DNA from: Lagopus muta
Taxonomy: Eukaryota; Chordata; Aves; Galliformes; Phasianidae
Assembly: GCF_023343835.1 (NCBI RefSeq)
Contig: NC_064444.1
Location: 17,707,219-17,771,218 of the forward strand
Direction: 5' to 3'
DNA length: 64,000 nucleotides
In this document: piece after piece, positions 6,601 to 9,081 of the stretch
How the letters are laid out: each line of letters starts with the position of its first letter
Position numbering within the stretch: the first letter of the stretch is position 1
Position numbers and translations under genes: made by a program
The notes under the pieces: model-generated
Databases searched by the model: none
What the model was told of the DNA's origin: nothing
Seen by the model: only the letters and a program-made list of their open reading frames with translations

Positions 6601-9081
6601 TCCCCCACCAGGGACTACTATAATAGATGAGCAGGGAATGTTGGGTGACCACCAGAGTCATTGGCAGATGACTGGGGACCACTCGGATGTACCTGGAGAC
6701 CAGGGGATGACTGGGGATCACAAGGAGATGATTGAGAACCACCAGGAGATGTTTGGGGACCGTCAGGACACGGTTGACCACCAGGAGACCACGAGAAGAT
6801 GATTTGGGACAACTGAGAGTTGACTGAGGACCACTAGGACATGACTGAGCAGTAGAGGATGAGTGGGGACTACCAGGGAATGACTGGGGACCACAAGGAG
6901 ATGATTGGGGACCACCAGGAAGAACATTGGGCAATCATCAGGAGATAACTGTGGACCACTAGGACGTCTGACCATCAGGGGGACAAATGGGGACCACAAA
7001 AAGATGACTGGGGACAATTGAAAGTTGTCTGGGGACCACAAGGACAGGACTAGTGGTCATCCTGGTCTAGTGGTTGGTGACCCTGCCCGTGGAAGGGGGT
7101 TGAAACTAGGTGATCTTTGAGGTCCTTTTCAACCCAGGCCATTCTATGGTGCTATGGTTCTATGGTTCTGTGGTTCTATGGTGCTATGGTTCTATGGTTC
7201 TATGGTTCTGTGGTTCTGTGGTTCTATGGCTCTGTGGTTCTATGGTTCTATGGTTCTATGGTTCTGTAGTTCTGTGGTTCTATGGTTCTGTGGTTCTATG
7301 GTTCTGTGGTTCTATGGTTCTGTGGTTCTATGGTGCTATGGTTCTGTGGTTCTGTGGTTCTATGGTTCTGTGGTTCTATGGTTCTATGGTTCTGTGGTTC
7401 TATGGTTCTGTGGTTCTATGGTTCTATGGTTCTGTGGTTCTATGGTTCTATGGTTCTATGGTTCTGTGGTTCTATGGTTCTATGGTTCTGTGGTTCTGTG
7501 GTTCTATGGTTCTATGGTTCTGTGGTTCTATGGTTCTATGGTTCTGTGGTTCTGTGGTTCTATGGTTCTATGGTTCTATGGTTCTATGGTTCTGTGGTTC
7601 TATGGTTCTGTGGTTCTGTGGTTCTATGGCTCTGTGGTTCTATGGCTCTGTGGTTCTATGGTTCTGTGGTTCTATGGTTCTATGGTTCTGTGGTTCTATG
7701 GTTCTATGGTTCTATGGTTCTGTGGTTCTATGGTTCTATGGTTCTATGGTTCTGTGGTTCTATGGTTCTATGGTTCTATGGTTCTGTAGTTCTGTGGTTC
7801 TATGGTTCTGTGGTTCTGTGGTTCTATGGTTCTGTGGTTCTATGGCTCTGTGGTTCTGTGGTTCTATGGTTCTGTGGTTCTGTGGTTCTGTGGTTCTGTG
7901 GTTCTATGGTTCTATGGTTCTGTGGTGCTATGGTTCTGTGGTTCTATGGTTCTGTGGTTCTGTGGTTCTGTGGTTCTATGGTTCTATGGTTCTGTGGTGC
8001 TATGGTGCTATGGTTCTATGGTTCTGTGGTGCTATGGTGCTATGGTTCTGTGGTTCTGTGGTTCTGTGGTTCTATGGTTCTATGGTTCTATGATTGACCA
8101 CCAGAGAACTAAGGGGAAGCACCAAGAGATGGCTGAGGACCACCATGGAGGATGTTGGGAAACCATCAGGAGATGGAAACAGCTGGGATGTGCCTGGGGA
8201 CCAACAGCGAATGGTTGGGGACCACGAGGAGATGGTTGGGGAATGCAGGGTAACCATCAGGAGATGACTGTGGACCACCAGGGAATGTCGGGCAACCGAA
8301 AGATGATTGAGGACAACCAGGAGATGACTGGTGACCATCAACAGATATAGGGTAAGCATTGGGACCTCAGAGAATCAGTCCTTGGTGCATGCTGGGTCTG
8401 GCAGAGGCAGGGCTGGGGCACTCACCAACTTCTGCATGTTGGCCGCAGGCGGATGCACTTTGCTCCTCAGCTTGTTGTGCAGCGAGAGTACCAGGAATGT
8501 CTCCTTCTCACTGAGAGCTGCAGAGGGCAAGGGGCAGCTGGGGATGGGGCCGAACGGGTTGCCGGTCCCATGCGGCAGCCTGGGTTATGGGAAGGCACCC
8601 GGGTCTCCATGGAGACCAGAGGGGAGTGAAGGAAGCACAGGAGCACAAAGGGGACAGGGGCTGGGGGGTAGCAGAGACTGCCAGGAATGCACCCGATCCT
8701 CGGGTGGGGGGGGGGAGGGGGGGTCCGGCACAGCACTGCCTTCATCGTGCTGCACTTGTCACCAGCCCAGAGCCCAGCCCCAGCCCCACATCCCCAGCCC
8801 CAGCCCCACATCCCTATCTCCAGCCCCACAACCTCATCACCACCCCAGCCCCCTGCCTGTTTAGGTACGGGACATCCACCCCATCCCTTTGGGAACAACG
8901 CTCAGGGCTCCCAAGCTGCTTTTTGCCCCGATGTGAGCAGAAAGCCCCCCCCCCACCCCCTCTTTCCATTACCTCGGGGTCCTGGAGCCAGTGGGGACAG
9001 CTTCTCCGACTCACCCACCCTCCAGGCCAGGCAGGCCAGCAGCACCAGCAGCAGGCCAGCCAGACCCCTGCTGTCCTCCAT
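3643..9081 (-). CDS. CLEC18: CLEC18-type CAP/EGF/C-type lectin secreted protein
   Basis: Twelve exons (minus): 9081-8973, 8517-8426, 6462-6235, 6163-6066, 5751-5630, 5548-5441, 4923-4831, 4759-4653, 4540-4411, 4179-4083, 4008-3917 and 3788-3643. Phases close to 473 residues; human CLEC18 has about 446. A signal peptide covers residues 1-24 ([11 protein letters not shown]). The CAP/SCP domain spans about 45-175, with SLHNKLRS and the HYTQ motif. EGF-like cysteines follow at about 218-284 ([24 protein letters not shown]), then the lectin domain at about 290-426. The lectin domain keeps FWIG, GQPDN (QPD, the galactose-type motif) and FNWNDQRC (WND calcium motif). CLEC18 proteins bind glycans in secretory compartments or after secretion. 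The last exon (CGTDVALGP... to GLGASR) is Cys-rich and unlike the human tail, so it is the least certain part. Introns are short and loaded with tandem repeats. Confidence 0.9.
4200..4370. repeat. Degenerate gatgtcc minisatellite in a CLEC18 intron
   Basis: Copies of a roughly 25-30 bp unit containing 'tgggatgtcc' plus 'catcag/ccaccgg' recur six or so times with heavy divergence between lectin-domain exons. Confidence 0.5.
4960..5345. repeat. TGCACATGCA-rich degenerate repeats
   Basis: This CLEC18 intron is largely alternating purine/pyrimidine sequence. It carries many variants of gcacatgca and gcactgcactgac recurring about every 35-45 bp. No coding exon is seen within it. Confidence 0.6.
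5815..6060. repeat. CCACGCCC/CCCGCCC box array in a CLEC18 intron
   Basis: About a dozen CACGCCC, CCGCCC or CCCACCC cores occur in roughly 245 bp. They are spaced about 15-25 bp apart inside a diverged repeat (aaagccacgcccactc) and include 'attggc' (CCAAT-type) elements. It lies in the intron between exons 6163-6066 and 5751-5630. The cores match Sp/KLF binding sites. Confidence 0.7.
6540..7060. repeat. Degenerate minisatellite (ggggaccaccaggagatgact), left arm
   Basis: Copies of a roughly 20-25 bp unit with core 'gggaccaccaggagatga' fill this part of the CLEC18 intron between exons 8517-8426 and 6462-6235. The same unit resumes at about 8095-8345, so one array has been split by the CR1 and octamer block between. 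Confidence 0.75.
7068..7145 (+). mobile_element. Short CR1 3' end
   Basis: This is a severely 5'-truncated CR1. It keeps only the last part (gaggtccttttcaacccaggccattctatgg) and runs straight into the octamer array. It inserted into the surrounding minisatellite. Confidence 0.8.
7141..8092 (+). repeat. ~950 bp octamer array GTTCTATG/GTTCTGTG
   Basis: About 119 uninterrupted copies of an 8-bp unit are present: GTTCTATG, with GTTCTGTG, GTGCTATG and GCTCTGTG variants. The array starts exactly at the octamer tail of a CR1 copy and ends in tatgattgacc. Because 8 is not a multiple of 3 and the unit holds no plus-strand stop, every plus frame stays open and would encode a period-8 VLWFYGSM chain. 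These are artefactual ORFs. It lies in a CLEC18 intron. Confidence 0.95.
8095..8345. repeat. Degenerate minisatellite, right arm
   Basis: This continues the ggggaccaccaggagatgact-type array seen at 6540-7060. It is on the far side of the CR1-octamer block and ends about 80 bp before a CLEC18 exon. Confidence 0.7.

Follow-up and report, generated by a model that had tools for sequence, protein, structure and literature searches.

What turns the short octamer tail of a CR1 element into a tandem array of 119 units? The question is raised by a locus of Lagopus muta, found in a stretch of 64,000 nucleotides (here called the window). This stretch belongs to contig C15 of an assembly of 1.03 Gb and is ~1.6 Mb away from the end of that contig. 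Amniote CR1 elements usually terminate at their 3′ end in the octamer ATTCTRTG, as described in passages of PMC8665684 and PMC5729268. The window array shares with the tail described there its position, its unit length, and an identical first unit, but its units number 119 rather than a few, and G replaces A as the first base in 118 of them (referred to below as G-first and A-first units, respectively). An earlier note on this DNA had read the array as a minisatellite derived from a CR1 tail, a reading that is well supported by the register of the array, its canonical first unit, and the tails of sister copies. The array was probably made from a CR1 tail that arrived with a truncated insertion in a 21-bp minisatellite and subsequently grew in DNA.

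The array and its host intron

The whole structure is held within a 1,966-bp intron (6460..8425, minus strand) of a gene that is presumably CLEC18-like, a name given to it for its resemblance. The intron was defined by a check of its GT..AG splice sites, by reading of the exons, and by a match to the Pfam CAP family. Its acceptor is a CAGCAG pair, and the boundary may shift by 3 bp. The CAP match was obtained with three joined exon pieces (E 9.9e-6; 26.8 bits, with a cut-off of 21.1). No Pfam family was recovered with the third exon on its own, and a comparison of the joined exons with PDB at E 1e-5 gave no match.

Apart from the CR1 and the array, the intron consists mostly of a degenerate 21-bp minisatellite (6484–8346). 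To the left of the CR1, at 6484..7055 and without assigned strand, is an old, degenerate array with the unit AGGAGATGACTGGGGACCACC, recovered by wrap-around alignment and by TRF. The alignment, which runs from 6484 to 7082 with 438/617 identities and a score of 222 (compared with ≤15 in 30 shuffles), overruns into the CR1 stub, and the right border of this repeat is approximate. The same minisatellite, again without assigned strand, resumes to the right of the octamer array at 8096..8346, where wrap-around alignment gave 200/271 identities and a score of 104 (compared with ≤18 in 30 shuffles). The 21-bp repeat is present on both sides, and the CR1 therefore landed inside an existing minisatellite. 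Three further tandem repeats are found elsewhere in the window: seven copies of a CCCTAA-like telomeric hexamer with 80% matches at 9766–9807, ~1.6 Mb from the contig end; 7.6 copies of a perfect 18-bp repeat (TGTGCAGGGCTCAGTGTG) at 28905–29041; and a C-rich minisatellite with a 26–27-bp unit and long C runs at 44925–45168.

The octamer array occupies 7141..8092 on the plus strand and accounts for 48% of the intron. It segments into 119 whole octamers (952 bp) with zero indels, which agrees with the ~119 uninterrupted copies and ~950 bp of the earlier note, and TRF recovers the identical span with scores of 1447–1504. Most units are GTTCTATG (59 copies) or GTTCTGTG (45 copies), followed by GTGCTATG (eight), GCTCTGTG (four), GTTCTGTA (two), and ATTCTATG (one). 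The sole ATTCTATG is the first unit of the array, the only one to begin with A, and it has the normal form of a CR1 octamer.

Because the octamer lacks a stop codon on the plus strand, long frames stay open through the array in that orientation. One of these, a 327-aa plus-strand frame at 7110–8093, was considered as a gene and rejected, as it is merely the stop-free octamer repeat; such a frame could mislead gene-prediction programs. In the sequence, nothing was seen that would point to a function of the array. Most likely it has none and is a side effect of the tail, which CR1 requires for priming.

The CR1 stub and its sister copies

The stub that precedes the array (7056..7140, plus strand, octamers excluded) is a 5′-truncated CR1 3′ end, an identity assigned from its sequence. 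When 7062–7148 was used as a query, 40 of 2,926 first-look candidates were scored, representing the window copy and 39 others with 92–94% identity. Likeness to these sisters extends back to ~7056, with an uncertainty of several bases at the 5′ edge. The stub, which had been described as under 80 bp, is therefore a little longer, with ~85 bp by sister alignment.

Twenty-nine of the 39 other copies were aligned and their octamers counted, a set drawn from the copies nearest to the stub and not at random. The start of the array coincides exactly with the octamer start in the sisters, so the array begins where octamers should, as had been noted. With ≤1 mismatch per unit, at least one octamer is present in 28/29 sisters. 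Two units are most common (17 copies), followed by one (seven copies) and three (two copies), while the remaining sisters have 0, 5, and 9 (the last being L013). Thus, 26/29 tails contain 1–3 octamers, close to the two to four copies that had been given as normal for CR1. Elsewhere in the window, eight CR1-like matches extend as far as the octamer, and each of these has 1–2. At 119 units, as opposed to 0–9 in the 29 sisters, the array is far beyond the ordinary length of a CR1 tail. As a separate observation, three CR1 3′ ends in the window (16106–16207; 17836–17929, minus strand; and 42955–43046) share a changed sequence (TGGGCAGCCTGGGCTGCTGG) in the 5′ region of the stub and bear 1–2 octamers each.

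The stub differs from the sister consensus at five of 96 columns, two of which are at the uncertain 5′ edge, and each of the five differences is also present in at least one sister. Because all of them recur in this way, the stub carries no indication of its age, and by means of it growth at insertion is not separable from later growth. An attempt to date the array as younger than the stub was dropped, given that the stub is short and its differences all recur. The DNA that flanks the stub consists of the degenerate 21-bp repeats, in which a short target-site duplication is indistinguishable.

Order within the array and octamer arrays elsewhere

Fourteen units of the window array bear rare changes, and these are of just three kinds (GTGCTATG, GCTCTGTG, and GTTCTGTA). 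Under independent mutation, ≤3 kinds have a union bound of 7e-10 and were seen in 0/200,000 draws, or in 0/50,000 draws with transition bias. The rare units were therefore copied, with no independent mutation. Copies of one rare variant can be up to 111 units apart. GTGCTATG always occurs on the A form of the alternating A/G position, whereas GCTCTGTG and GTTCTGTA occur on the G form. All eight GTGCTATG units lie ≤26 units from an end of the array (P 0.00065, with the limit set post hoc), as would be expected if the middle of the array grew last.

It had been suggested that the A/G alternation might encode a higher-order pattern, and at most a trace of this stood, namely that of an eroded block duplication. 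When the unit string was aligned to itself with gaps, the best alignment, shifted by ~10 units, scored 25.6, compared with a shuffled mean of 14.1 and a maximum of 24.2; the score was reached by 0/150 shuffles, with a narrow margin over the best of them. In the ungapped scan, a lag of 25 units (200 bp) gave z 3.8 and P 0.007 over 59 lags, with 57% unit identity that by eye is chiefly around units 27–61. Runs of A and G forms are in modest excess (71 observed, compared with 59.3 expected; P 0.016). Neither the lag scan nor the gapped self-alignment revealed a regular multi-unit period across the window array, the feature by which higher-order-repeat satellites are defined. A higher-order code in the A/G string was rejected on these grounds: one significant ungapped lag and no regular period. 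The longest exact repeat in the array is 11 units, a length reached by 16% of first-order shuffles; it is within chance, and any duplication in the window array is thus old or eroded.

The earlier note had implied that the array is singular. It is not, since a ~238-copy array behind another CR1 and at least 24 shorter arrays exist in the same genome. A search for eight ATTCTATG units with ≤3 mismatches gave 496 overlapping matches, compared with 0 for the reversed control. Among the 100 places listed, all of them exact, 97 are on contig C1 and three on C2. Those on C1 make up 20 exact ATTCTATG arrays of 8–24 units each, with eight variant units in a total of 248. By eye, all 20 are at CR1 3′ ends, in one instance (L073) with 4 bp between; this survey covers the exact places on C1.

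Arrays with G-first units were sought by exact match, which detects those with a matching four-unit run. Six places were found, with ~238 copies on C7, 119 in the window, ~51 on C2, 42 on C24, 19 on C9, and 12 on C59. Each of the six was judged by eye to follow a CR1 3′ end, the C24 array (L092) with 8 bp between. In total, 26/26 octamer arrays examined, the window array included, sit at a CR1 3′ end, and in the 25 others the array starts, again by eye, at the terminal repeat as it does in the window (apart from the two with 4 or 8 bp between). CR1 3′ ends with >20 octamers, which the earlier note had proposed to seek in bird genomes, are present in this genome, for example, on C7, C2, and C24. 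The composition of these arrays varies. The C9 array is pure GTTCTATG, that of C2 is G-first in 26/28 exact octamers, that of C59 is G-first in 7/12 units, and that of C24 is a mixture of 20 G-first and 22 A-first units. A search of viral contigs for three GTTCTRTG units gave 0 matches.

The largest array found (L095, 562–2460; G000:C7:70573000-70576400) consists of ~238 copies of GTTCTATG/GTTCTGTG behind another CR1. It measures 1.9 kb by TRF, has 228 units in one register, and contains 31 kinds of unit, nearly all G-first. Since the CR1 end that precedes it differs from the window stub, and since the three rare variants of the window are absent from its unit kinds, the C7 array most likely grew independently of the window array. 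An exact 16-unit string recurs in it 19 units away, whereas 60 shuffles reach ≤10, and it shows block duplication more clearly than the window array does.

A further indication concerns the age of the tails. Eleven CR1 bodies on C1 that group with the window stub diverge by 2.5–17% from the group consensus. This range is an overestimate, as the group combines different subfamilies, and the window stub itself is at 12% against that consensus although it closely resembles its own sisters. The tails of the 11 copies are nearly pure, which is due in part to the search, since it ranked exact matches first. Pure tails on divergent bodies hint that tail growth may have followed insertion.

Probable growth of the array and its place among known systems

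In the course proposed here, a CR1 cut to its last ~85 bp would have landed in the 21-bp minisatellite within the CLEC18-like intron. CR1 inserts by target-primed reverse transcription. Judging from the sisters, the inserted copy would have carried the usual few ATTCTRTG octamers, and at least one tail unit would have changed to GTTCTRTG, presumably in that order. The tail would then have grown in DNA through slippage of single units and duplication of multi-unit blocks, the latter by unequal exchange or large-loop slippage, and this growth would have spread the three rare variants over the array. The first units, from two to perhaps ten, may have been added by slippage of the reverse transcriptase. 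Growth mainly in DNA after insertion is most likely, because the rare variants were spread through the array by copying and the sister tails are short. Accordingly, of the two routes that had been offered earlier, slippage at insertion and later expansion, the second fits better, and the first may account for the initial steps.

Alternatively, most of the 119 units could have been laid down at insertion by a CR1 reverse transcriptase that slipped on the octamer tail of the RNA. Slippage on tail repeats has been proposed for UnaL2 in a passage of PMC3747384, the L013 sister has reached nine units, the small excess of A/G alternation would suit a two-unit template, and a stub with no private change leaves room for a young insertion. 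On the other hand, a template of 1–3 units does not account for three rare variants with copies in different parts of the array, nor for long-range self-similarity. By reasoning, slippage alone on a template of alternating A and G units would give ~119 runs, where 71 are observed, and the sister array on C7 contains its exact 16-unit repeat 19 units apart. Such an origin for most of the array is therefore improbable. Less probable still is an assembly artefact, in which the true array would be shorter or longer and would have been inflated or collapsed by the assembler. Long tandem arrays are prone to such errors in general, but here 119 units show zero indels, the order of the variants is neither random nor periodic, and the longest exact duplicate inside the array is just 11 units. 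That an independent octamer minisatellite came first, with the CR1 stub adjoining it by chance or by way of a tail-like target, is very improbable, for although the insertion site is rich in minisatellite DNA, the array is in register behind the CR1 end with a canonical CR1 octamer as its first unit, and visual inspection places each of the 26 octamer arrays at the 3′ end of a CR1 (with 4 bp between in L073 and 8 bp in L092).

Tandem arrays that arise from LINE 3′ ends are known under the term microsatellite seeding. In snakes, CR1-L3 LINEs are described in a passage of PMC6050309 as seeding microsatellites on a large scale, with AATAG arrays at LINE 3′ ends. The window array is likewise a tandem array that is associated with a terminal repeat and immediately adjoins the 3′ end of a CR1-type LINE. 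It differs from the account of snakes given there in having an 8-bp octamer and being one unusually long array, in contrast to AATAG and a genome-wide rise in microsatellites. In chicken, tandem DNA tied to CR1 is represented by the HinfI repeat (PMC6947457, PMC9659126) and by CR1-C-related centromeric repeats (PMC6947457), as named in these two reviews. As listed there, the HinfI unit includes CR1 UTR or ORF sequence, whereas here the octamer tail alone is repeated. The best-ranked matches in open PubMed Central papers included no report of long octamer arrays in birds. Likewise, the best-ranked matches to an exact-letter literature search for ATTCTATG included none that concerned CR1 by title, and an exact-letter search of open PubMed Central papers for TTCTATGGTTCT gave no match. 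The window array is thus a large example of LINE-tail microsatellite seeding, a known process, and as a single locus it is unsurprising in itself.

What the genome adds is range, with tails of the usual 1–3, of 8–24, and of 42–238 units. The three longest arrays found (~238, 119, and ~51 units) are nearly all G-first and belong to three different CR1 copies. For comparison, the 20 exact ATTCTATG arrays, which are A-first, peak at 24 units among the exact places listed for C1. With the GTTCTRTG form, one strand has a GG at intervals of 8 bp. One tentative and rather doubtful idea is that the change from ATTCTRTG to GTTCTRTG might be a switch that promotes expansion. It would have occurred repeatedly, in separate CR1 copies, and would be what distinguishes runaway arrays from ordinary short tails. 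The mixed array of 42 units on C24 speaks against a strict G-first rule. Nevertheless, the range of tails makes it countable across genomes which tails expand and whether a G-first unit favours expansion. If the trend were to hold genome-wide, one base of the octamer would help to decide whether a CR1 tail runs away.
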